Positions 22,191 through 37,244 of a DNA stretch of 43,243 bases are shown piece by piece. Source of the stretch: a virus. Under the pieces are notes generated by a model, which saw only the letters and a program-made list of their open reading frames with translations, had not been told where the DNA came from and did not search any database. The stretch lies in the IMG/VR virus record IMGVR_UViG_3300027492_000003, positions 1-43,243 of that record; one strand, written 5' to 3'. Every line of letters starts with the position of its first letter. Positions within the stretch are counted from its first letter, which is position 1. A program made the position numbers and the translations under genes.

Positions 22191-22859
22191 ATGGATCCGA
22201 TCATCGGGGCAGGTTTAATTAGTGCTGGTGGCAGCATTTTGGGTGGCTTGTTTGGCAAAGAAGATCCTGCCAAAAAGCAAATGAAGCAAATGAACAAACT
22301 GTTTGCTCAAGCCAAAAAAGACCAAGATTGGATGTACGGTCAGGCGCGGCAACAGCAAGCCATGGTTTTGCCCACGCTGCAAAAGGGCTTTGCCTCGGCT
22401 AACAAGTTTGCTGATATGTACGGTCGTTCGGCCAAGCAAGGCGCATACGATCAGTCCAAGCAGCTTTCGGGGCAGATGCAGCAGTCTATGACCCAGCGCG
22501 GGTTGTACAACACGACTGCGTTTGACAACGCCTCACGAGGCATTAGCAGCGACCTAAGCCGCACGCTGATGGGTATCGACGAGTCGGTTGCTGGCATGAA
22601 AGGTCAGCTAGCACAAGCGCAAGCATCAGCAGAAGCGGGCGCGTATGGCGCGATGTCGGGCTTCTACCAGAACTACGCAGGCGCGAACACGGCGTTGCTT
22701 GGCGCACAAGCTGGTGCAACTGCGAACATTCAGTTCCAAGATCCGAACGCATGGACGGCTGGCCTGGGTCAGCTTGGTGGTACGCTGCTTGGTTACGGGA
22801 TGATGAACAGCGGCGGATCTGGTACTTCTGCGTTTAACAACAGCACATCAATTTTCTAA
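22191..22859 (+). CDS. Internal virion (ejection) protein, small subunit
   Basis: Codes for 222 residues. The start DPIIGAGLISAGGSILGGLFG is a Gly/Ala-rich amphipathic or membrane-active segment typical of phage internal proteins. A Gln/Ala/Met-rich helical region (residues 25-120) and a glycine-rich tail follow. It is the first of three consecutive genes of rising size (222, 757, 2,823 residues), the same pattern as T7 gp14-gp15-gp16, and likely forms part of the ejected channel through the outer membrane. The family assignment rests on composition and order. Confidence 0.65.
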   Translation: MDPIIGAGLISAGGSILGGLFGKEDPAKKQMKQMNKLFAQAKKDQDWMYGQARQQQAMVLPTLQKGFASANKFADMYGRSAKQGAYDQSKQLSGQMQQSMTQRGLYNTTAFDNASRGISSDLSRTLMGIDESVAGMKGQLAQAQASAEAGAYGAMSGFYQNYAGANTALLGAQAGATANIQFQDPNAWTAGLGQLGGTLLGYGMMNSGGSGTSAFNNSTSIF

Positions 22860-22881: not shown

Positions 22882-25155
22882 ATGGCACTAATTATTCGTC
22901 CTAACAGCGGCATTAGCAACGCGATGGCCGGCATTGCTGCTGGCTTTGGTCAAGGCATGCAGCTTGGCATGGAAGCTGAAAAACTCGAGCTAGCGCGTCA
23001 GCGTCAAGCCAAAGAGCTACAGCTTGCAGAACAGCGTGCAGCGTTGGAGCTAGCGGCAGAAGAACGTGCCAAAACACAGTTTAGTCAGCAGCAAGAACTA
23101 TTTGCTCAAGGGCAAGAAGAGCGTGCAGCTAGCAAAGAAGCCATGGGCTATCTGGCTGAAGCCGAAGGAGCGCGCACGTCGTTGCCTAACTTGCCGGATC
23201 AAACAGGTAAGTTTAGCTACGAGTTTGGTACTCCGCAGCAATCTAATCAATACACGGGGATGCCAATCAATCCCGTGAACGCCATGCTTGGCAAGTTTGC
23301 TAACCAAGCGCAATACAAAGGCGTGCTTGACAACTACAACAAGCAAATGACTATGGCTGGCAAGCTAGCCAGCAAAATGGATCCGCAAACGGCGCAGATT
23401 TTTATCAAAGAAAAAGAGCGCCAAAGCCTGTTGATGGCTGACGAGTCTGCGCGTCAATCGTTTAGTTCGATGCTAGTTGATCAGCGTGGTCGTGGGTTCT
23501 TTCAGACGTACACGCCAACTGGGGAAGCTGTAGAAGATCCGCAAATTACGGCACGGCTTGAGAGTTTACTTGAGCAATCACAAAACCGAAGCGTCCCGCT
23601 GGAAAAAACGCAACAGATTTATGACAACTTGCTAGGAGAGGTTGGCAAAGCCAAACTTAAAGCGCAGGACTTTAAGTTCCAAATGAATCGGTTCGATGCC
23701 GCTATTGCTAATAGCGAGCAAATGGGTCAACAATCTCAAGCCTTAGCATTTCAGGCATTAAAAAATAATTATCAAATTGATCCAAACATCAGCCCGCAGC
23801 AGATGTCGTTGAACATCGAAAAAGCTAATCAGGGAATGATTGGCGTGACGATTAACGGCAAACCTGAATGGGTAAACGCTGCAACAGCAAAAGAAGACAC
23901 CGCACGGCTGCAAGCAGAATCAGATAAAATGCGTGCATACGAGCGTGAAAATGCTGATTTGAGAAATCAGCTACTGCAAAAGAACATTGGCCTTACAGAG
24001 GCGCAAACGAAGTACACAGCAGGTCGCAATCAAGGTGTTAATCAATACCAAGCGCAACAACTAGCTATTCAGCAATGGCGGGCCTTAGGCGAAGACGGTC
24101 AATTCCAAGTAATTGAAGCCGGTGGAACTCCACAAGAGTGGATTGCACAGCAAGCAGCACAACTGATGTCAGGCGGCGGCATGATGCCTGCTGATGCTGG
24201 TGCTAGTGCTGGTGCTGCGGCAGGCGGTATGGGTGCAGCGAATACGCCGTTTACTGGCGGCGGTGCAGCAAGGCCGATGATGAATGTGCCTGTGAATGTG
24301 CAGGAGAACATTCGTCGCACGCTAGACGAAGCGGGCATTACTGACCCCAAGCAGCGCCAAATCGCAGCAGGTCAAATCCTGCGTGGTGAGTGGGGTGCGC
24401 GTAAGGAAGCCAAGGTTGTGCCTGGCGAACCTGCAATTACAAAAGATTACACGCCACAAAAAGACGCAAACGGCAAATATCCTGCATGGATTGCGCCGTA
24501 TGTCAAACCAGATGGAACAATTGACAAAGAAAAATATCAAGCAGACGCAGCTGAAAGAATGCGCCGTAACGAGTTGCCGACCATTACAGATGCTTCTTTG
24601 CAAGCCTCAGAGCGAGCTTTAAACCTCAATGAGTCCTTGTCTACCTTACAACCAAAGGGGACTAAGTCGATTGGTGAATACAGAAAAGAACTTGAAGGGC
24701 TAGACATCAACAAAATTGCGTCTGAAGAAGATGCCGACAATGTTATTGATCGCCTGAGAGGCATTGACAAGATCTACAAAGTAGGCTTGGGCAATGTGAT
24801 TCGTGAAATTGAAGATATGAAAAAGCGGGGCGCATATCCCGCCGGAAGTATGACTGCCGCTCAATTGGAAGCCAAGCGCAAAAAACAATACGAGCGTGGG
24901 TATTACCAAGGTGAAGCGTCAGCCAAAAAAATGGATGAAAACCAAAAAGCGGAAGAACGTTTGGCATGGGAAACGGCTTCTAGGATGCGAGCAAGCGAGG
25001 ACGCTTATGCAAAATACAATGCGTCAAAAGCTGGCTCGACAAAATCTGTAGATCCCAAAGTGACTACTATTTCTGAGTTTGCCAAAATGTACAATGTCAG
25101 CGAGCAGGATGTGCTTAAGGCATTGCAGGAAGCACGCGCCAAGGCTTCTAAATAA
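22882..25155 (+). CDS. Internal virion (ejection) protein, middle subunit
   Basis: Codes for 757 residues. After a short N-terminus (GISNAMAGIAAGFGQGMQLG) it is nearly all Glu/Gln/Ala/Lys-rich helix with strong coiled-coil character (residues 30-90 and 250-400), a flexible Gly/Ala/Met stretch at about 430-470, and a charged helical C-terminus that includes a TISEFAKMYNVSEQDVLKAL helix-turn-helix-like end. By position and size it matches the gp15-type component of the periplasmic DNA-ejection tunnel. No enzymatic motif is visible. A short leader (AGCTAGCAC) precedes the next gene's ATG, and TCTAGCAC precedes this gene. Confidence 0.65.
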   Translation: MALIIRPNSGISNAMAGIAAGFGQGMQLGMEAEKLELARQRQAKELQLAEQRAALELAAEERAKTQFSQQQELFAQGQEERAASKEAMGYLAEAEGARTSLPNLPDQTGKFSYEFGTPQQSNQYTGMPINPVNAMLGKFANQAQYKGVLDNYNKQMTMAGKLASKMDPQTAQIFIKEKERQSLLMADESARQSFSSMLVDQRGRGFFQTYTPTGEAVEDPQITARLESLLEQSQNRSVPLEKTQQIYDNLLGEVGKAKLKAQDFKFQMNRFDAAIANSEQMGQQSQALAFQALKNNYQIDPNISPQQMSLNIEKANQGMIGVTINGKPEWVNAATAKEDTARLQAESDKMRAYERENADLRNQLLQKNIGLTEAQTKYTAGRNQGVNQYQAQQLAIQQWRALGEDGQFQVIEAGGTPQEWIAQQAAQLMSGGGMMPADAGASAGAAAGGMGAANTPFTGGGAARPMMNVPVNVQENIRRTLDEAGITDPKQRQIAAGQILRGEWGARKEAKVVPGEPAITKDYTPQKDANGKYPAWIAPYVKPDGTIDKEKYQADAAERMRRNELPTITDASLQASERALNLNESLSTLQPKGTKSIGEYRKELEGLDINKIASEEDADNVIDRLRGIDKIYKVGLGNVIREIEDMKKRGAYPAGSMTAAQLEAKRKKQYERGYYQGEASAKKMDENQKAEERLAWETASRMRASEDAYAKYNASKAGSTKSVDPKVTTISEFAKMYNVSEQDVLKALQEARAKASK

Positions 25156-25171
25156 CCAACACAGCTAGCAC

Positions 25172-28100
25172 ATGGATCAAGAATACGATCTGTCGTGGGT
25201 TAACGCACCGTCTCCCACCCCGCAGCTTGCTGGCGGCGGTATGCCTGACCTGTCGTGGGCAGAAGAATCGGGGTCGTATTCTCTAGGCGAGCATTTGCAG
25301 CAAGCTGGCAGCAGTTTGGTAAGCGGCCTTACCAGCACCTTTACCGGCGCAGTAGAGGGTTTGGGTATTGCGGCTGAAGGTTTGTTTGGCGAGTCCAGCG
25401 TTGATGACTGGGCGCGTGAGACGCAAGCAAGCATTCAGTCAGCAGTACCTGGGGTTGAGGGGCTAGGCGATTCGTGGACGGCGAAGATCAGCAGCGCATT
25501 TGGTTCTGCGTTTGGCTATGTCGGCGCTGGCTTTGCAACCGGCGGTTTAGGAACTGTAGCTAGCGGAAGTGCGGCTGTTGGCCGTGGTTTAGCTATGGTG
25601 TCGTCTGGTTCGCTTGGTGCGTTAGGCACGGGCGCGTCTCGATACTCAGAAGCGGTGCAACTAGGCAAATCGGAAGAGGACGCATGGAAGTCCTACTTTG
25701 TTGGTTTGGGTATTGGCTCGCTGGAAGCCATGCCTGTCGGTCTAAACCGCGCTGCAATGCGTCTAGCCAAAGCTAACAAGGCTTCAGGCGGTGCGCTTAA
25801 GAACATCACGGTCGGTCAAGTGATGCTCGCTGAAGGCTTAGAAGAAGCCGGACAAGAGATGTTGTCTGAGGGTTTAAACCAACTCAGCGACTACGCCCTA
25901 AGCATCAAGTCGGCAGAGGAAGCGTTTGACCTAAACCAACTGCTTGAGTCAGGCGTACTGGGCTTCCTGCCAGGCTCCGCTATTGGCGGTATTACAGCTA
26001 AAAGCCAGATTGCTGCATCACTTGCAGAAGCACGCAAGGAAGCTGAAACCGCAGAAGAGGCCAAGGTTGCAGAAGAACTAAAGGCCCAACGCGGTCAACT
26101 GCTTGCCGAGCAAATTGGTGCGGTAGAAACGCAGGCCAAGCAAGCACAAGAGTTGGTTGCTGCTGGCGAGGCAGAGCTAGCTCGGTTGGAAGGTCGCGCT
26201 CCGACTACGGAGGCTGCACCTGCGGCAGAAACACCTGAAGCTGCGGCTGTAACAACTGCTGAAGGAATGCCCGTAACAGCAGAAACGCCGGCTGTTGTTG
26301 ACGGCGAAGCTGCTACAGCTACTCCTGCTGCACCACAAGTCACGGAAAAAGATATTCAGCCACTTCAAATTGAGGGGCTAGAAGACATGCCGTTTTTTAA
26401 TTACGGCAACCGTGTAATGACGTTTGTCAAAATTGGCGACACGCTGCAACCATTTTATAGGTCATCTGGAAGAAACGCTAAAAAAGGCGTATCCGCAGGA
26501 CAATGGTTGCCGTTTTTTGGAGTTTCAACACAAGGAATTGGCGCAGAGCTTGGATGGGTAGCAAAGACTGGCGAAGTTGGAAACTATTACGGTAGTGCGT
26601 CTCTTAAAGCAGCCGGTGAAATGCTTGACGCAAAGTATGGAACAGATGCTTTGCCGGATGAAAACGTGCCACAAGTTGCAATGTCTGGCATGAAAGCAAA
26701 GCTAAAAAAGAACGCTAAAATTACTACTGCTGAAAAAATTAATGCTGCAACCGGTTATACATTTAAAGATTTTCACCCAACTGGAGCAACTTCGGAGCAA
26801 AGCGCAGCCGTAATTGATTTTATTAAATCTCGCGTAGCCAAACTTGATGCCCTTGTTGCGTCTACTGCTGCTGCCGCTACACCTGCTGCGGTTCCAACGG
26901 GTACGCCAGAGCAAATTGCAACGGTCAAAGGCCAGCTAGCTTTGTTGCGTCAAAACCGTGACGCGCTTGCTGCACAGTTAAAAGCAATCACCGAAGAAAC
27001 AACCGACGAAGGCAAGGCGCTGCTTGCTGGCGCGTATGGTGAGGCACAAGCTCGCGCTGAAGCTAAGGGACTAGGCGAGCAGTTTCGTGCTGCTGTAACG
27101 CCTGGCGCAGAACGGTTGCTAACAACCGAAGAGCAAGCTGAATGGGATGAAAAGAAGCAGAAACTCGGCAAGCGCGAGATTTTCAAAAAAGACTATGACG
27201 GCCTTAAAAACAGTCGGTTGGTAGTTGCGGCAAACGAAGCGCAGCAAAAAGCCGAGAAGGTACTGACCGACCTAGGGTTCAAGGTTGAGTTCTTAGACCC
27301 AGGTAACGACAACAAGACATTTAAAGGCTTGGAAGACGGTACGACCGTTTACCTAAACGCACGGTTGTCAGACGAAGCGCTGTTGCGTCGCGTGGCGCGT
27401 CACGAGGCATTCCACGGTGTGTTCCGCTCCAAGGACGGCCAAGACCTGTGGAAAGACACCATGCAGCGTTTGCAGCAGGCCGCGCCTAATGTCTGGGCCG
27501 CAGCGCAACGCAAGGCTTTAGGTGAACTAGCGACCACTACAGGGTCTAAGGAAAAGCTCAAAGCGTTGTTGTCTACGCCGGAAGGCCGTGAACAACTTCT
27601 AAACGAACAGGGTTCGTCTGCCGTTGACATTTTCAGCGCGACGATGGATGCGCTTGAGGCAAACCCTGAACTAGCCGACGAGGCTATGCAGGCTGACCCG
27701 ACCTTCTTCCAGCAGCTGTACGACTGGGTAAAGACGAAGCTCAACAAGCTGGGCTTTAAGTTTGAAACGCTAGCTGACGCTGATCGTCGTGCAATTGAGA
27801 AGCTACCTAAGCTGCTGTATGACACCGAGCGCGGCGATGTAGAGGTAGAAGCATCTGCCAACGAGCGCATTGCTGGAGCGCAGGTGCTATTGCGGTTGCT
27901 GGCTGCGGCAGAGGCTGGAACTGTAGCTGCTGCATCTGGCCGTGAGCGCCAGGCGCGTATGTTTGCTTCGCGCACGCTAGGTGAGCTAGAAGCTACACGC
28001 ACGAAGGAAGAGCTAGCCAAGCGGCTAGAGGAAGAACAAGCTGCCCGCGAAACGGCTGCATACGAAGATCGGCGCAAGAAGGCTGTCGATGCAGCACGGG

Positions 28101-31100
28101 CGCGTCTAGGCCGCATTAAAACGGCGGACGAAGAGTGGAAGGTCATTGAGGCTATCGGTCGCGCCAGCACGCCTGCAAAGCAGCGCGAGGCTTTAGCTAC
28201 GCTGCCAGGGCTTCCGACTGACCTGCGTCCCGAAGAGGTCGCTAGCTATGTGCAAGCGGCCACCGAGCGATTCGATGCTAACGAAGCCAAGAAGGCTGAC
28301 GAGGAAGCAAAGCGTGTAGCGGCGCTGGAAAAGCAGCGTAAAAAAGAAACGGACGCTGCCCGCAAACTTGCTACGGCGCAACGCGAGCAAGAAAAGCGCA
28401 AGGAAGAAAAGTACTACGCCAAGCTAAAAGAACTGGCTAGCGACACCCCCACCGGCTCTGCGGCAGGTGTAGTCAACCGCATTGCTGCGACCGATGGTGA
28501 CCAAGCCGTTGCAGAGGACGCTGTGCGGTCGTTCCTTGGCAAGGAAGCTACTGATGACGAGGTTATCGTTGCAGCGCAAACTGCTCGAGAGACTGCTATT
28601 CGTCGTGCAGCCCGCCTTGCCGAAGAGAAGCAACGCAAGGCTAAGGAAGTCCAAGACGCTAAAGATGCACAGGCGCGGCAAGCGGCAGAGCGCGAAGCTA
28701 AACGAGCGCAAGAGCGCAAGGATCGTTTGGAAGCTCAAGCTGCAAGAGCGCAAGCTAAGGCAGATGAGCGCCAGCGCAAGCTAGATGAAAAGGCCGCTGC
28801 TCGCCAACGCCGCGAGGATGAAGCTCGTGCGGCTGAAGTCCGTGCGCAAGAAGAAGCTGAACAACAAGCTGCCCTAGATGCCGCCGAAGCAGAACGCCTT
28901 GCTACGGAGCAAGCACAACAAGAAGCGCAGGACGCGGCTGACCGTCAGCGCCGTAGACGCGAGAAGCTGCCTACGGTGGCACGCGGTCGGTTTGTGCCAG
29001 GGCAGTTGCGCGTGGGGGACATTGTCAATTTCAACAACCGCGCATCCAAGGTTGTAGATGCATCCGGTAGCGGCTTTGACCAACGCATCAAGGTAGTGCC
29101 GATTACCAACGAAGAAGCTGCACTAGCCGATGTCGTGGAAGAACGCGGCACGAAAGACTGGTGGAACGCTATCCCGTGGATGGGCGAGCCGGTAGCAATT
29201 GACATGACCGACAAGCGTTTGCTCTCTGTTATTGCCAAGCGCAGCGACACGGAGGTTATGACGCAAGACGGCAAGAAGGCGTTGCGTAAGCGTTACGAGG
29301 CTGACTTGGCCCGTAAGGAAGGCGACGCGCCGCTGTTCTCAGCTAAAGGTCAAGCCATCACTCCAGAGATGGAGGCCGAGTACATGGCTGCGGCAGAGGC
29401 TGGCGATCTGGCAACTGCCCAGCGGATGGTGGATACTGCCGCAAATAAAGTTCAACAAACTGTAGAACCAGAACTACGATCTTATGCAACTGATCTTGCT
29501 GCACTTGCGCAAAAAGAATATGACGAATGGGATCAGGACGACGACGGTTACTCAGAAGAACTAGGTACTGGAGGAATTTGCGACAGAATTGCCGACGCTA
29601 TTGGTGGATATTTATCAAATCGAGGATTTGACATTGAAAACGGCGGTCAAGATGGGGACGATCACGCTTGGATTTATGCGTCAAAACACGGGATGACGTT
29701 TGCAGTTGATATTGCACCAAACACTTACGAAATTGGTGGTGGATATTCATGGCGAAAACGTCCAAATGTTGTATTTGATGGAAAACACATTGATATTGGT
29801 GCTATGCCATACGATGCTGTTTATGGCAAGCCTTACACGCCAGAAACCATTATTCGGGACGACAACGGCAACGTAATCCCGTTGTCACAACGCTTCCAAG
29901 ACACGATTGACGACATTCGTTACTCGGTAAGAGCCAAAGTTCCTGCTGCCGTTGGCTTTGCTGGTGGAGGCACGTTTGAGATCGCGTTGAGCGATGTGCT
30001 TGACACGCAGTTGGCCGTTGAGATGCAGCCTGACATTGCCGAAGCGTACAACCGCAACGCGCAGCGTCCTTCCACGGTTGCCAAGATTGGCGATGTCAAT
30101 GCCGAAGACTTTAAGGGCAAGGTGCTAGCTCACTTTAGCCCGCCGTGCGTTGACTCGTCGTTGCTGCGTAGCGGCCAAGGTGTAAACAAGGCCGAGGAAA
30201 CAGAGCGCGGGCGTGAAGTAGCCAACATTATCCGCGTGGCCCAGAACCCGATTGTCGTTATTGAAAACGTTAGAGAATACGGCAAATCGGAAGCGTACAA
30301 GCTGATCACGGACGCGCTTACGGAATCGGGCTACACCTGGGACGCGCATGTGTACAAGGCGCAGGACTACGGTTCGCCTAGCAAGCGTCAGCGGCTGTTT
30401 GTTCGCGCTGTAAAACAAGGCGAGTTGCCGCCGCGTCCTGAGCCTACGCACTCCAACAAGCCCACTTTGTTTGAAGCTCCGTATGCCTCGTGGGGCGACG
30501 CGCTAGCTGATGTCATCGACACGCTGCCTGAGTTTAAGGGCGAATTGCCGCCGTATGTGTTGAAGGCGCTGAAGTCGGCCAACATTGATCCCAAAGCTCC
30601 GAGCAAGGCGTACTACATCAGCGGCACGCAGGTACACGGGCTAGCGCCTCTGTCGCCGTTCGATAAGCCTTCGCCTGGCATGGTTGCAAGTGGCGCAGAA
30701 ACCCCGCGCATCCTTATGCCCGATGGCCGCGTCCTGCGCGTCACGCCTGAGGCGATGAAGCGCCTCATGGGCTTTGGCGCAGAGATGCAGTTGCCGAGCG
30801 ATCCGAAGCTAGCCAAGCGCATTGTGGGCAACGGTATCCCCAAGCCGCTGACCCGTGCAGTTGTACTGCCGCTGCTGGAGTCGCAAGGCGTGCTAGACAC
30901 GCAAGGGCCGATGTTCTCTGTCAAAGGCAAGGGCGGCGAAAAGCCTGGCAAACCTAGCAAGCCTAAGCGTGTTTCAGCCAAAGCAGCTAAGAGTGCCAAA
31001 GCTGCGTTGAAGGAAGCGCAGCAACGTGCCGCAGCAGCAAAGCTAAAGCGTGCGAAGGATGCGTTGCGCAAAGAGGTAAAGCCGCTAGCCGAACAAGCGC

Positions 31101-33643
31101 TAAAGGAAGGCGAAGGCACATCGGTTGGTGAAGCGCCGGGTTCAGCAATCGCTGCGACCACAGAAGAAGCACGCGCTTTGACTCGTGGCGTGCGCGAGTA
31201 CATGCGGCAGATTGAGTACCAGATTCTGCCCACGCTGAAGGCTGACGATGACGCTCGCGCCTTTGCGCTTGCCGAGCTTGAGAACGACTACGAGGGCACA
31301 AAAGAAGCGTTGTTCGAGGAGATCCGCAACAACGGTTCTGTCAGCGAGCCGTGGAAGCAGTACGCCGTCATGGCGATTGCTGCGCAGGAAGCCGAGAGCG
31401 CTACCACAGGTCGCATGACGACCGACAAGTTCTACGCTGCATACGAGGCTGAGTCGTACGACGCTGCGATCCGCCGTAACGCTAGCGCTCAACTCCGCGT
31501 GCGTAAGGATGCAGTCATGGCTGCACGCAAGCGCAACAAAGCGCATGTGTTTGCAGGTACAAGCTCGCTGCGTAAGGCCGAGCGGGCGCTGAACAAGGCG
31601 CTAGAAGGTGGCAACAAGGCTGATGTTGCCAAGGCCCGCAAGGAAGTAGAGAAGATCCGCCGCGACCATGCCCAAGCGGTTGTGGAGTACCTCGACAAGA
31701 AGCGCGAGGAAGGCTACGACGTTGATGACATGTTCTCCTACCTTGCCAAGGGAGATCTTGTCACCTTCTCGCGTTTGATGCGCGGGTTGCATGGTGCGCG
31801 AACGGAAGCTGACTTGCGTGCTGGCCGCGTGAAGTCGGTTTGGGACGCATTCATTGAAGCGCGTCACGCCTCGATGCTAAGTGGCCCTGGCACTCACATC
31901 GCCAACATCGCCGGTAACGCCGCGATGATGTCGTTGCGCACTACGCGCCAGCTTGCCGAGGTGCTTACAAACCTAGTCATCCGTGACCGTGACAGCGCGG
32001 ATTTTGGTGACTTCAAAGCCTACATGACGGGCTGGCTGCGCTCGCTGGGTCGAGCCATGCGCAACTTCGTCATGGCGTACCGCACGGACATGCCGGTGTT
32101 CGAGGCGCAACTCAACGCTGACTCAACGCTGGAGTTTGCCGAGCAGGCTAATGCGATCCCTGGCCTTATTGGACGCATCCTGCGCTTCCCCTCGCTGACG
32201 ACCCTACGGGCGTTCGACGAGTTGTTTAAGACGATGGCAGCGCACACGGAAGCCGGTAGCTTGGCCTACCGCCAAGGCCGCAGAGACGGCTTGTCGGGCG
32301 CAGGCTTAGAATCGTTTATCGACTACGTCCTAACCGACTACAACCACCCGCTGTGGCAAGAAGGTTTGGAACGCGCTCGCACAACGGTGTTCCAGGCGCG
32401 TAGCGACGAACTGACGCGAGTGTTGCTGCAAGCGCGTAATTGGCTGGACAATAACCCGACGACCGTTCCCATCGGCTCGTTCTTGTTGCCCTACATCAAG
32501 ACCCCGACCCAAATTATCAAGGTCGGCTTGTCGATGCCGATTCACCCGTTTGTCCCGATGTTCAAGTTTGCCAAGCAAGCCTTGGGTGCTGGGACTTACG
32601 AGAAGTCGGAGCGTGTGCCGGATGCCGCCAACGCCATGGTTGCGGTGGGCATGCTGGTCTTGGCGTACAGCCTTTTGGGCGACGACGACGACGACCAACC
32701 GGCGCTCACGGGTGCTGCTCCCGCAGACTACCGCGAACGGCAACTGGCCGAGCGTACTGCGCCGCCTAACAGCATCCGCGTGGGCGACACCTGGTACAGC
32801 TACAACCGCGTAGAACCGTTTGCAACGAGCATGAGTGCGCTTGCAGACATGGTCAAGGCTACCCAGATCGCGCTGAACGAGGATGTGCCTGAGCGCTACA
32901 ACAAGGCTCTGGCAACGCTAATGAACAACGCCGTGGGCCAGCTGGAGGACAAGACCTTCCTGCGCACGCTGGGCGATGTCAGCAAGATGTTCCGCGACCG
33001 CGAGAACGTGAACGCGGCCAAGATGACCCGTGACCTGTTCATTAGCCCGATGATGCCCAACTTGGTGCGGCAGCTAGCCAGCGCTGGCGACCCCTATATG
33101 CGCGATGTGTCCGTGCGCGAGTACGAGGATGCCAGCGAATGGGATGCGATGTACCAGAAGCTGACCTATCAGGTCTACCCGTCCAAGGACAACCCTGACG
33201 CGCCGCCTATCAAGCACGACCTCTGGGGCCGGCCCGTGGAGCGCCAAGGCGGCAGCTACATGGCTCGAGCCTTCTCGCCGGCCAAGCAAACGCTGGAAAC
33301 CGAGGACATCAACAAGCTCGACCGGCTGATTGTGCGGTTCAATGACAAGGTCGAGGAGGGCACTTTTGGGGGTGCGGTAGACAAATACCTGCCGCGTGCC
33401 CCCGAATACCGGATTCGTCGTGGCGACCAAGAATTCCTGTTGAGCGACGAGGAATACAGCCGATTGACCCGTGACGCGGGCCAGTTAGCACAAAAACGGC
33501 TGCAATATCGTAGACTTAATTACGAAGATCCGACCGAGCGCGACATCGAAATCATCCGTGATGCCCTGTCGAAAGCTCGGAAAACAACCATCGACCGAAT
33601 TCTGCGGGATCGCAGAATGCAACCTACACAAACTGGAAACTGA
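25172..33643 (+). CDS. Giant polyvalent internal virion protein with peptidase and C5-cytosine methyltransferase domains
   Basis: Codes for 2,823 residues. In order: Gly/Ala-rich membrane-active N-terminus (about 90-260); helical linker; unknown AT-rich-coded domain (about 395-565); zinc-metallopeptidase motif HEAFH at 744-748 after 'YLNARLSDEALLRRVAR'; long charged coiled coil (about 930-1280); transglutaminase/papain-like domain with Cys1470 (GGICDR), His1498 (DDHAWI) and Asp1513 (VDIAPN); C5-cytosine methyltransferase (about 1590-1910) with a FAGGG motif, PPC with Cys1659, ENV at 1698, KRQRLF at about 1737 and GNGIP at 1886; then a 900-residue helical C-terminus with 'SGPGTHIANIAGN' and 'FLLPYIKTPTQIIK'. 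This multi-enzyme layout matches the 'polyvalent proteins' described in phages and plasmids, thought to enter the host with the DNA and shield it. Position equals the gp16-type ejection protein. Domain calls are motif-based. Confidence 0.8.
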   Translation: MDQEYDLSWVNAPSPTPQLAGGGMPDLSWAEESGSYSLGEHLQQAGSSLVSGLTSTFTGAVEGLGIAAEGLFGESSVDDWARETQASIQSAVPGVEGLGDSWTAKISSAFGSAFGYVGAGFATGGLGTVASGSAAVGRGLAMVSSGSLGALGTGASRYSEAVQLGKSEEDAWKSYFVGLGIGSLEAMPVGLNRAAMRLAKANKASGGALKNITVGQVMLAEGLEEAGQEMLSEGLNQLSDYALSIKSAEEAFDLNQLLESGVLGFLPGSAIGGITAKSQIAASLAEARKEAETAEEAKVAEELKAQRGQLLAEQIGAVETQAKQAQELVAAGEAELARLEGRAPTTEAAPAAETPEAAAVTTAEGMPVTAETPAVVDGEAATATPAAPQVTEKDIQPLQIEGLEDMPFFNYGNRVMTFVKIGDTLQPFYRSSGRNAKKGVSAGQWLPFFGVSTQGIGAELGWVAKTGEVGNYYGSASLKAAGEMLDAKYGTDALPDENVPQVAMSGMKAKLKKNAKITTAEKINAATGYTFKDFHPTGATSEQSAAVIDFIKSRVAKLDALVASTAAAATPAAVPTGTPEQIATVKGQLALLRQNRDALAAQLKAITEETTDEGKALLAGAYGEAQARAEAKGLGEQFRAAVTPGAERLLTTEEQAEWDEKKQKLGKREIFKKDYDGLKNSRLVVAANEAQQKAEKVLTDLGFKVEFLDPGNDNKTFKGLEDGTTVYLNARLSDEALLRRVARHEAFHGVFRSKDGQDLWKDTMQRLQQAAPNVWAAAQRKALGELATTTGSKEKLKALLSTPEGREQLLNEQGSSAVDIFSATMDALEANPELADEAMQADPTFFQQLYDWVKTKLNKLGFKFETLADADRRAIEKLPKLLYDTERGDVEVEASANERIAGAQVLLRLLAAAEAGTVAAASGRERQARMFASRTLGELEATRTKEELAKRLEEEQAARETAAYEDRRKKAVDAARARLGRIKTADEEWKVIEAIGRASTPAKQREALATLPGLPTDLRPEEVASYVQAATERFDANEAKKADEEAKRVAALEKQRKKETDAARKLATAQREQEKRKEEKYYAKLKELASDTPTGSAAGVVNRIAATDGDQAVAEDAVRSFLGKEATDDEVIVAAQTARETAIRRAARLAEEKQRKAKEVQDAKDAQARQAAEREAKRAQERKDRLEAQAARAQAKADERQRKLDEKAAARQRREDEARAAEVRAQEEAEQQAALDAAEAERLATEQAQQEAQDAADRQRRRREKLPTVARGRFVPGQLRVGDIVNFNNRASKVVDASGSGFDQRIKVVPITNEEAALADVVEERGTKDWWNAIPWMGEPVAIDMTDKRLLSVIAKRSDTEVMTQDGKKALRKRYEADLARKEGDAPLFSAKGQAITPEMEAEYMAAAEAGDLATAQRMVDTAANKVQQTVEPELRSYATDLAALAQKEYDEWDQDDDGYSEELGTGGICDRIADAIGGYLSNRGFDIENGGQDGDDHAWIYASKHGMTFAVDIAPNTYEIGGGYSWRKRPNVVFDGKHIDIGAMPYDAVYGKPYTPETIIRDDNGNVIPLSQRFQDTIDDIRYSVRAKVPAAVGFAGGGTFEIALSDVLDTQLAVEMQPDIAEAYNRNAQRPSTVAKIGDVNAEDFKGKVLAHFSPPCVDSSLLRSGQGVNKAEETERGREVANIIRVAQNPIVVIENVREYGKSEAYKLITDALTESGYTWDAHVYKAQDYGSPSKRQRLFVRAVKQGELPPRPEPTHSNKPTLFEAPYASWGDALADVIDTLPEFKGELPPYVLKALKSANIDPKAPSKAYYISGTQVHGLAPLSPFDKPSPGMVASGAETPRILMPDGRVLRVTPEAMKRLMGFGAEMQLPSDPKLAKRIVGNGIPKPLTRAVVLPLLESQGVLDTQGPMFSVKGKGGEKPGKPSKPKRVSAKAAKSAKAALKEAQQRAAAAKLKRAKDALRKEVKPLAEQALKEGEGTSVGEAPGSAIAATTEEARALTRGVREYMRQIEYQILPTLKADDDARAFALAELENDYEGTKEALFEEIRNNGSVSEPWKQYAVMAIAAQEAESATTGRMTTDKFYAAYEAESYDAAIRRNASAQLRVRKDAVMAARKRNKAHVFAGTSSLRKAERALNKALEGGNKADVAKARKEVEKIRRDHAQAVVEYLDKKREEGYDVDDMFSYLAKGDLVTFSRLMRGLHGARTEADLRAGRVKSVWDAFIEARHASMLSGPGTHIANIAGNAAMMSLRTTRQLAEVLTNLVIRDRDSADFGDFKAYMTGWLRSLGRAMRNFVMAYRTDMPVFEAQLNADSTLEFAEQANAIPGLIGRILRFPSLTTLRAFDELFKTMAAHTEAGSLAYRQGRRDGLSGAGLESFIDYVLTDYNHPLWQEGLERARTTVFQARSDELTRVLLQARNWLDNNPTTVPIGSFLLPYIKTPTQIIKVGLSMPIHPFVPMFKFAKQALGAGTYEKSERVPDAANAMVAVGMLVLAYSLLGDDDDDQPALTGAAPADYRERQLAERTAPPNSIRVGDTWYSYNRVEPFATSMSALADMVKATQIALNEDVPERYNKALATLMNNAVGQLEDKTFLRTLGDVSKMFRDRENVNAAKMTRDLFISPMMPNLVRQLASAGDPYMRDVSVREYEDASEWDAMYQKLTYQVYPSKDNPDAPPIKHDLWGRPVERQGGSYMARAFSPAKQTLETEDINKLDRLIVRFNDKVEEGTFGGAVDKYLPRAPEYRIRRGDQEFLLSDEEYSRLTRDAGQLAQKRLQYRRLNYEDPTERDIEIIRDALSKARKTTIDRILRDRRMQPTQTGN

Positions 33644-35016: not shown

Positions 35017-35205
35017 TTACACCTCGCGCCGTGCTGGGATGTAGATTGTGCCTTCTAGGCTTTGGTTGAGCGTCACGAATGCCACCTCAGCATCGTTACC
35101 GAAACGCTTAACCGCTGCCGCTCGTGCAACCACCTTTGACCAGAACGGGCCGTAGGCTTGTACCACACCGTTGGGCGCGGTGTACAAGAAAATGTAGATT
35201 CTCAT
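35017..35205 (-). CDS. Small hypothetical protein (62 aa)
   Basis: Codes for 62 residues: strand (MRIYIFLYTAPNG), helix (WSKVVARAAAVKRFG), strand, strand (EGTIYIPA), a compact alpha/beta layout like many phage accessory proteins. No family is recognised. The ATG overlaps the stop of the Dcm-type methyltransferase gene as ATGA, so it is translationally coupled to it and may be co-expressed with modification functions. Confidence 0.6.
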   Translation of the reverse strand: MRIYIFLYTAPNGVVQAYGPFWSKVVARAAAVKRFGNDAEVAFVTLNQSLEGTIYIPARREV

Positions 35206-36692
35206 GGCTTCCCGGCTTTGAGCTTTTCGACTTTGGCGATGCGTTCACCAATCCATCTCATCACCGGCACGGCCATGCTGTTGCCAAGCGCCTTGTAGCG
35301 CGGGCCGTCAGGAGTGTCCTTGCCACGAGGCCGAATGTCGGTGTAGCCGTCTGGGAAGCCTTGTAAGCGCTCGCACTCCACCGGCGTGAGACGACGGACT
35401 TGCATGGCTGGAGAAATTGTCATTTGATGTTCTGGAATTCTGCCAGCACGCAAAGTTCCAGCAGAATCGTATTCTGCAACGCCGTATTGGCTGTCTTGGA
35501 ATACTGTACTTGGCCGCGACACGAGCGGCGTACCTCGACCAGTCCCGTCTTCGCTTGCATTAAATCCTCGGCCACGCAGAGTGTGGGTAACAGAAGGCTG
35601 CTGCACCATCACCGTTGGCCCCGAAGCGTTCACAGACGAACCTGGCGTGCCCATTGTCGCTGCAACATCACCAGTCACGCTTCCGTTGTAGCAGTCGGTT
35701 CCGAGCGCCACCGCCATCGTGTGTCCGTCAGTATCAACTGCGCCAGATTGGTTGCCGTACTGCACAGGATCTTGTCGTGCGTTAAACCCAACAAAGTATC
35801 CAGCGCCGTCGTCAATGTGCTGGTTGTCCTGCTCGTACTTGTCGCCAAATTGCGCGTTCATGCACGGCACAACGTCAGCCGGCCATGTTACATGCAGGTC
35901 GCTAGCAGACTTGAAGTCTCGAGCAGCGACTGTAGATGCAATGTCATCCTCCACATACGAGTCGATAGCCAACCGCCGTGCGTTCATGCATTTGGTTGCA
36001 ACCATATGACCCGCTACCGCATTTTGTGCCCGCTGCGCGTTGATCCTGCAATCAATTGCGCCAACTACATCTGCGCTACTTGACGCAAGGCCGCTTCGAG
36101 CGCCGGAGGAAGTTTCTTGTTGCGCTTTGCTGCGCGGCGAAGAATCCCCTCGCACGCTTTCGCGCTCAAAAAGAACCGCTGCGGCACAGCGCCAGTCACC
36201 AAGGTATCCAACAACGAAGACTCTTCTACGGCGCTGGGCCACTCCGAAGTAACGAGCGTCAAGCACTCGGTAGGCGAACCCATACCCGAGTTGAGCCAGC
36301 GCCCCGAGGAAGGAACCAAAGTCCCGTCCTCCTCCGCTGGACAAGACTCCAGGCACATTTTCCCAGACGATCCATTTTGGCTGTAGCTTTTCAGCCAAGC
36401 GGACAAACTCAAGTGTAAGTTGCCCTCGACCGTCAACCATTCCTCCTCGCTTGCCAGCGATGCTGAAAGATTGACATGGGGTTCCTCCGACCAAAAGGTC
36501 AACTGCTCCACGCTCCAAAGGCCATTTGTCATGTTGTGTCAGATCTTGAAAATTCGGCACATCGGGATAGTGATGCGCCAAGACTTGTTGCGGAAATTTT
36601 TCGATCTCAGCAAAACCCACAGGTTTCCACCCCAGGTGATGCCAAGCGACAGTTGCGGCTTCGATACCGCTACACACGGATAGGTACTTCAT
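35202..36692 (-). CDS. Dcm-type C5-cytosine DNA methyltransferase
   Basis: Codes for 496 residues with the full C5-methyltransferase motif set: SVCSGIEAATVAWHHLG (motif I, residues 5-21), FAEIEKFP (motif II), GGTPCQSFS with catalytic Cys73 (IV), ENV at 111-113 (VI), QRRRRVF at 153-159 (VIII), RRLTPVECERLQGFP near 430-455 (IX region) and GNSMAVP at about 471 (X). It methylates cytosine at carbon 5, probably shielding phage DNA from host restriction. Residues about 170-430 form a long, low-complexity target-recognition region, so the sequence specificity cannot be read. Overlaps both neighbours as ATGA. It is distinct from the methyltransferase domain inside the giant virion protein. Confidence 0.92.
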   Translation of the reverse strand: MKYLSVCSGIEAATVAWHHLGWKPVGFAEIEKFPQQVLAHHYPDVPNFQDLTQHDKWPLERGAVDLLVGGTPCQSFSIAGKRGGMVDGRGQLTLEFVRLAEKLQPKWIVWENVPGVLSSGGGRDFGSFLGALAQLGYGFAYRVLDARYFGVAQRRRRVFVVGYLGDWRCAAAVLFERESVRGDSSPRSKAQQETSSGARSGLASSSADVVGAIDCRINAQRAQNAVAGHMVATKCMNARRLAIDSYVEDDIASTVAARDFKSASDLHVTWPADVVPCMNAQFGDKYEQDNQHIDDGAGYFVGFNARQDPVQYGNQSGAVDTDGHTMAVALGTDCYNGSVTGDVAATMGTPGSSVNASGPTVMVQQPSVTHTLRGRGFNASEDGTGRGTPLVSRPSTVFQDSQYGVAEYDSAGTLRAGRIPEHQMTISPAMQVRRLTPVECERLQGFPDGYTDIRPRGKDTPDGPRYKALGNSMAVPVMRWIGERIAKVEKLKAGKP

Positions 36693-37105
36693 TGCTTGGG
36701 CCGTGCCGTAGGTTGGTCAAACTCGTTTTCCACCCACTTAGCCCCAGCAGGGTCATATCGCATTTCGCATACGCGAAGCGTCCAGCGCGGGCCGACCTTC
36801 TGCCAGCCATGCACCTCCAAGCTCGCCCAAGTCGCCCACAAGGCCGCAGGCGCGGTCTGGCGGATCTTTGCCTTGCGTGCGCTCATGTTGCCGCGTGTCG
36901 TCACCTGCACGCCTAGGATCGGCGCTGTGGGACTGACGGCAACAATGTCGATCACCTGAAACAGATCCTGGCGAATCTTGGCAAAGGGGTTCCACCTCTC
37001 GACGATCTGCGCGGTCACGCCTTTGCGGCGTAACCAAGCCATCGTGAGTTGTGTCGGGGAAATCTTAGTCGTTTTCTTCTTCGTTGAGGTCTTCTTCGTC
37101 GTCAT
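36689..37105 (-). CDS. PD-(D/E)XK-like nuclease-fold protein
   Basis: Codes for 138 residues from the ATG at 37105 (the TTG two codons upstream is unlikely). After a Lys/Thr-rich start comes 'LRRKGVTAQIVERWNPFAKIRQDLFQVIDIVAVSP' and then 'ILGVQVTTRGN', the pattern of restriction-endonuclease-like phage proteins with Asp in VID and a Q-x-T where E/Q-x-K is usual. The Lys is missing in place, so activity is uncertain; the nearby RGN or ARKAK may supply it. It precedes the methyltransferase gene with ATGA overlap and overlaps the small upstream gene by 41 bases. It could process or repair DNA, or be an inactive DNA-binding relative. Confidence 0.55.
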   Translation of the reverse strand: MTTKKTSTKKKTTKISPTQLTMAWLRRKGVTAQIVERWNPFAKIRQDLFQVIDIVAVSPTAPILGVQVTTRGNMSARKAKIRQTAPAALWATWASLEVHGWQKVGPRWTLRVCEMRYDPAGAKWVENEFDQPTARPKQ

Positions 37106-37244
37106 AGTCAAATCCGCTGTGCGCTAGTAGGCACATCATCAGCACGCCGACCACCTCGGCGCGTGTAAGGTGATATTTTTCAGCCGTTTTAGCGATGGTA
37201 AGTGAAACTGCGTTTCCCAGTTTTTCGCGGCCAACACTTGTCAT
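37065..37244 (-). CDS. Small acidic-tailed protein (59 aa)
   Basis: Reads from ATG at 37244 to TAA at 37067-37065, 59 residues: MTSVGREKLGNAVSLTIAKT, a helical KYHLTRAEVVGVLMMCLLAHSG part, then a very acidic tail (DYDDEEDLNEEEND). The ATG overlaps the upstream gene's TGA as ATGA, the standard coupling in this operon, and the codon pattern is regular, so I consider it real. It overlaps the start of the nuclease-like gene by 41 bases. The acidic tail is reminiscent of DNA-mimic or chaperone-like phage proteins (speculative). Confidence 0.6.
   Translation of the reverse strand: MTSVGREKLGNAVSLTIAKTAEKYHLTRAEVVGVLMMCLLAHSGFDYDDEEDLNEEEND

Follow-up and report, generated by a model that had tools for sequence, protein, structure and literature searches.

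What is a cytosine-specific DNA methyltransferase (MTase) doing inside a giant phage protein, and where would it act? The question is raised by the window, the whole viral contig of 43,243 bases analysed here, which belongs to a podovirus-like phage. A first-pass annotation had pointed out in it a frame of 2,823 residues without a stop, labelled as an internal virion protein and said to contain a complete C5-MTase domain. The frame is indeed there (Table 1). Its parts follow one another as an N-terminal region, a zincin-like peptidase motif, a charged repeat-rich stretch, a cargo region bounded by linkers and a gp16-C-like part, with the C5-MTase as the final cargo, just before the gp16-C-like part. 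Pfam detects a single family in the whole ORF, PF00145. The region around the HExxH motif is, judging by the motif, a probable zincin-like peptidase; Pfam gives no peptidase match there.

Table 1. Features of the giant ORF and of its surroundings (positions are those of the window, residues those of the giant protein)
Feature	Positions	Strand	Residues	Basis
222-aa protein, gp14 position	22191..22859	+		Only position and size, by comparison with ProddE and Syn5
757-aa protein, gp15 position	22882..25155	+		Position and size
Giant ORF, 2,823 aa	25172..33643	+		Reading frame without a stop; probably a gp16-type ejection protein grown into a polyvalent protein
HExxH motif RHEAFH	27398..27415	+	743-748	Read in the sequence; kept in three relatives
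Linker 1 (LFSAKGQAITPEMEAEYMAAAEAGDLATAQRMVDTAAN), start of cargo region	29324..29446	+		Repeats at other module borders in relatives
Upstream cargo module	29447..29863	+	1426-1564	Other modules in its place in relatives
Linker 2 (NGNVIPLSQRFQDTIDDIRYSVRAK), immediately 5' of MTase	29864..29938	+		dS 0.32 vs G001
C5-cytosine methyltransferase domain	29939..30907	+	~1590-1912	PF00145, AlphaFold, M.HhaI fold match
Motif I FAGGG		+	1596-1600	Sequence
Motif IV SPPC, catalytic Cys1659	30137..30148	+		Cys invariant in 68/68 clade members (in part by construction, see text)
Motif VI Glu-Asn-Val (ENV)	30263..30271	+	1698-1700	Sequence, clade alignment
Motif VIII KRQRLF, Arg1739 and Arg1741	30383..30400	+	1738-1743	Sequence, clade alignment
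Motif X GNGIPK	30827..30844	+	1886-1890 (GNGIP)	Sequence, clade alignment
Linker 3 (QGPMFSVKGKGG), end of MTase module	30902..30937	+		Recurring linker pattern
gp16-C-like internal virion protein D region	31844..33319	+	~2225-2716	phrog_6651; Syn5, P60 and ProddE matches
Stand-alone C5-MTase, separate from the giant protein	35202..36692	-		PF00145, E 8.2e-56

The PF00145 match (E 3.4e-22) extends over residues 1596-1897 (29957-30862) and covers profile positions 7-318 of 324. The same domain matches phrog_116 in PHROGs (E 1.3e-28), with which PADLOC concurs; the NCBIfam dcm model is matched at 61 bits, below its curated cut-off of 101 bits, and a sequence search of the PDB leads to M.HhaI (E 2.9e-6). 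The AlphaFold model of residues 1580-1918, made with a 22-sequence alignment, has a pLDDT of 88.9 and a pTM of 0.88, its low-confidence parts being both ends and the loop that follows the catalytic Cys. M.HhaI is also the top solved structure for this model in Foldseek (E 2.6e-17, TM 0.69). The structure prediction that the first-pass annotation had proposed as a check thus returned the methyltransferase fold and, together with the nearly full PF00145 profile, bears out a complete domain. Motifs I, IV, VI, VIII and X, which had been read by eye in this order, stand where they were placed, an arrangement far above chance. Among the PDB-sequence and fold matches was 8yf3, which raised the possibility of carboxymethyltransferase activity; this activity is tentatively disfavoured, as the Asn of motif X, which we take to be the informative residue on this point, is kept.

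The evidence for a place in the virion comes from the other end of the protein. Residues 2225-2716 match phrog_6651 in PHROGs (E 1.9e-14) and give tblastn matches to Syn5, P60, S-TIP28, ProddE and others, and an HMM made from three sequences of this region finds internal virion protein (IVP) D of ProddE (E 3e-23) and Syn5 gp45 (E 6e-13). The internal virion protein label of the earlier annotation appears to be sound in this part, which these matches indicate to be homologous to the T7-gp16-type IVP D. There was no PDB sequence match to the region; its AlphaFold model (pLDDT 39.6) was not used, the alignment being too shallow, and scans of viral contigs yielded nothing from the single sequence and only two already-known relatives from the alignment. 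The IVP D homologue of ProddE and of Syn5 comes third and last among the internal virion proteins. In the window a trio of 222, 757 and 2,823 aa fits the order and size of gp14-gp15-gp16, the first two by position and size only: the 222-aa protein has no sequence match, and the 757-aa protein resembles IVP C of ProddE only very weakly (E 0.017). Because of the IVP D match and the third place in a gp14/15/16-like trio, the giant protein is likely to be ejected together with the phage DNA. For T7, the C-terminal part of gp16 is presumed to enter the cytoplasm, where it would bind DNA (PMC8954989).

The history of the C5-MTase within this protein can be read from relatives of the window (G001, G008, G009 and others), viral contigs chosen by a 93-100% identical major capsid protein. 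Between the window and G001 most of the giant protein is ~55-75% identical and synonymous sites are near saturation, while the MTase module is 94.5% identical with a dS of 0.25 (elsewhere in the gene dS is >1.2 or saturated), which indicates that the module was recently exchanged. Its dN/dS of 0.14 (bootstrap 0.075-0.217) indicates purifying selection, and in the catalytic lobe dN/dS is ~0.06. The upstream cargo module is only 28% identical to that of G001 and has no Pfam match. The backbones of G008 and G009 are 99.5% identical up to the first linker, with different cargo beyond it; at the DNA level the cargo of G009 shares 94.5% identity with a module of G001, although the remainder of these two genes shows almost no DNA alignment. 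In the same slot G008 carries ART-PolyVal matches and a C5-MTase ~30% identical to that of the window. The MTase is one exchangeable cargo module between linker repeats.

The linkers between modules follow a recurring pattern, (R/L/M)(F/Y/M)S(V/A/Y), and are candidate sites of recombination as well as of cutting by the putative peptidase. The linker peptide is also present in unrelated giant ORFs of other phages (L062-L084; ~2,400-4,500 aa) that have no C5-MTase by motif check, so polyvalent proteins in general may be exchanged or cleaved at such sites. The giant ORFs L053 and L056, whose backbones are 99.5% identical and whose cargo differs from the first linker on, offer a natural experiment on the role of the cargo. 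A weak likeness of the window ORF at 366-1307 to a module of locus L055, suspected by eye, was not confirmed on comparison.

A profile search found about ten more giant phage ORFs with a C5-MTase. In two trees, all embedded domains form a single clade (support 100/99 and 100/100), separate from 22-24 stand-alone enzymes of phages, plasmids and genomes. A second search, seeded with embedded members, produced 78 loci, 66 of them within the clade; the ORFs of these 66 are at least 1,500 aa long in 48 cases, 800-1,499 aa in five and <800 aa in 13, the shorter members being nested inside the clade. A clade exclusive to giant proteins had agreed with the first trees; the larger sample, with its 13 short ORFs, weakened this to 'mostly'. 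Further domains in the giant proteins of the clade are ART-PolyVal, LPD22, YunG and a virion-RNA-polymerase match, and the neighbouring genes include those for tail, head and internal virion proteins. Stand-alone phage C5-MTases (phrog_116, PaV-LD type, as well as the one at 35202-36692 in the window) share the PF00145 fold and motifs with the embedded domains; they are separate genes outside the clade and are ~23-31% identical to the window domain. Close stand-alone relatives were also looked for in sequenced phages, where the matches to two clade members were merely ~25-28% identical. It is possible, though we would put it slightly short of an even chance, that the clade is a dedicated C5-MTase lineage carried as cargo of ejected giant phage proteins, swapped at linkers and delivering a host-matched MTase at DNA entry.

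Two arrangements among these loci are unusual. Clade members of ~430 aa with an N-terminal extension (L189-L193, L211 and L219) are followed immediately by a gene that, judged by eye, probably encodes a large terminase. At the C-terminal end of the giant ORF of L109 (2-10876, on the same contig as L240) the embedded C5-MTase looks, by eye, like a circular permutation, with motif I placed after the target-recognition part and motif X.

Does the domain still work as an enzyme? The first-pass annotation had noted VDSS after the catalytic Cys in place of the usual QxFS and had suggested altered specificity or activity. The reading of the letters is correct; the departure is mild, with Ser1663 retained. 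Motif IV in the clade is SPVCK followed mostly by N, F/Y/L and S, so that K takes the place of the usual Q in 66 of 68 sequences; SPPCVDSS, with V instead of K, is confined to the window and its closest relative, G001. If SPPCVDSS is taken as a mark of lost or changed catalysis, the domain would contribute DNA binding to the ejection protein, and the motif VIII-to-IX stretch, short in comparison with stand-alone relatives, could be read in the same way. A pure binding domain, though, would need none of the residues that are invariant in all 68 sequences (the Cys, Glu-Asn-Val, both Arg and one Trp), where the conservation around the Cys is partly by construction, one search pattern having included HASP(V/S)CK, and that of Glu, Arg and Trp is unaffected. 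The low dN/dS of the catalytic lobe is equally hard to reconcile with such a role, which we regard as highly improbable. Loss of the catalytic Cys in the clade had been suspected from a pattern that missed SPVC; the Cys is present in every sequence read. The SPPCVDSS variant may possibly change specificity, and an inactive domain is unlikely.

Several known systems resemble parts of this arrangement. Ejected polyvalent proteins with adenine MTases, and a proposed anti-restriction role on incoming DNA, are already described in the text of Iyer et al. (2017, PMC5512222), the archetype being DarB of phage P1. By profile, the window protein combines a C5-MTase with an internal-virion-protein region and so shares the basic design of polyvalent proteins, large phage proteins that each unite at least two unlike enzymatic or binding domains; like those in the text of PMC5512222, it is giant and multidomain, is probably delivered with the DNA, has a peptidase-like motif and a DNA MTase, and has relatives with ART modules. 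The MTases catalogued in that text are for the most part adenine enzymes of the EcoKI/TaqI-like kind, fused to LPD36 and an SWI2/SNF2 helicase, whereas that of the window is a C5-cytosine enzyme with no helicase match, set in a gp16-type ejection protein as a linker-bounded cassette. None of the DarB-type features (an NPPY/F adenine N6-MTase, LPD36 or an SWI2/SNF2 helicase) was found in the giant protein with Pfam, PHROGs or NCBIfam.

With T7 gp16 and IVP D (Syn5 gp45, ProddE IVP D) the protein shares a homologous C-terminal part, and the order and size of the genes would fit the last place among three internal virion proteins; it differs in its length of 2,823 aa (1,268 in ProddE and 1,415 in Syn5), the extra being the peptidase-like region and the cargo modules. 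We know of no such cargo in T7 gp16. The virion RNA polymerase of N4, of 3,500 residues, is an ejected enzyme that stands in for gp16 as the third of the ejection proteins and is active in the cell once delivered (PMC12633501). Like it, the window protein is a giant enzyme-bearing protein in the place of gp16; the enzyme activity differs, and ejection is here a prediction from homology. Within the clade, L090 has an additional match to phrog_2206, the family of virion RNA polymerases. What appears to be new, as far as sequence comparison goes, is a C5-cytosine MTase in an ejection protein beside the known adenine MTases of polyvalent proteins. The open-access literature yielded no phage ejection protein with a C5-MTase, and an earlier description elsewhere is possible; in the text of PMC5512222, 'cytosine' occurs solely within a reference title.

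The first-pass annotation had proposed that the virion carries an MTase able to modify the incoming genome before restriction, a view that the present evidence supports in part. We consider it reasonably probable that a gp16-type DNA-ejection protein has been enlarged to a polyvalent protein whose MTase methylates the entering DNA ahead of restriction. The giant protein would be packaged in the virion and thread into the cell before the genome, where its C-terminal part would act as a hub that binds DNA in the cytoplasm, the role presumed for T7 gp16. With AdoMet from the host, the MTase next to this hub would methylate its target sites on the incoming DNA, or would alternatively be freed by cutting at the linkers and then do so, in either case before the host restriction enzyme acts. 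Swapping of the MTase among phages as a cassette would follow from restriction specificities that vary between hosts. For this protein we infer packaging, ejection, refolding, activity, timing and the anti-restriction effect. The C5-MTase domain with its predicted fold, the IVP D homology and a third place in a gp14/15/16-like trio that fits the order in ProddE and Syn5, the recent exchange of the module and the purifying selection on it, and a clade whose members sit mostly in giant phage proteins with virion-gene neighbours all argue for this course of events, and DarB in P1, the N4 virion RNA polymerase and gp16-C in the cytoplasm are precedents for it. On the other side, so large a domain has to traverse the tail channel and regain its fold, position is the sole basis for recognizing the gp14- and gp15-like neighbours, and the model of the gp16-C-like part is of low confidence.

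Late expression of the gene is moreover to be expected, and the enzyme could just as well work in the producer cell, methylating progeny DNA before or during packaging, with its site in an ejection protein incidental or serving as a portal tether. The place of the gene among structural genes implies that the protein is present while progeny DNA is packaged, and some clade members are short and adjoin probable terminase genes (by eye). Such a task needs no fusion, however, and giant virion-type proteins, where the clade mostly sits, are unnecessary for it. The separate C5-MTase of the same genome bears on both accounts: it could protect replicated DNA, which counts against a need for the ejected enzyme, and, being present in the window and as a 96% identical copy in G008, it is the simpler agent for work in the producer cell (no copy was found in the examined part of G001). 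We hold methylation in the producer cell, the leading alternative, to be unlikely. Beside the stand-alone gene lies a small gene (36689-37111, minus strand) with a 42% identical homologue (E 2e-25) in the distant phage L087, where it sits downstream of the giant gene.

These genomes bear a probable mark of restriction. The observed/expected ratio of six-base palindromes is 0.51 in the window, 0.52 in G008 and 0.44 in G001, against 1.01 for other six-mers; 17 of 45 six-base palindromes are strongly avoided in the window vs 19 of 3,218 other six-mers, and among four-base palindromes ACGT is avoided most strongly (41 observed vs 185 expected). The avoidance points to pressure from palindrome-reading restriction enzymes and is no demonstration that this MTase acts. 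It is uninterpretable as a guide to the MTase target, since protection and absent restriction pressure are indistinguishable. It counts in favour of methylation of the entering genome and bears on a further alternative, in which the ejected MTase would methylate host DNA, altering expression or disturbing defence, as one of several cargo effectors. The neighbouring cargo of relatives has ADP-ribosyltransferase domains, proposed in the text of PMC5512222 to be host-directed effectors. Still, few enzyme copies acting over a short infection would presumably methylate little of the host chromosome, and palindrome avoidance indicates restriction as the pressure. We judge such a host-directed role very unlikely; like the non-catalytic role, it is less likely than methylation of the entering DNA.

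A phage MTase synthesized in the cell arrives too late for the first entering genome. An MTase carried in the ejection machinery would fix this timing for cytosine-specific restriction, as has been proposed for DarB with adenine. The swappable cassette also provides a ready set of natural enzymes, and comparing their specificities with the hosts' restriction systems would put the arms race directly to the test. Should the linkers turn out to be cut, they would reveal the way in which a phage frees separate enzymes from a single ejected protein.
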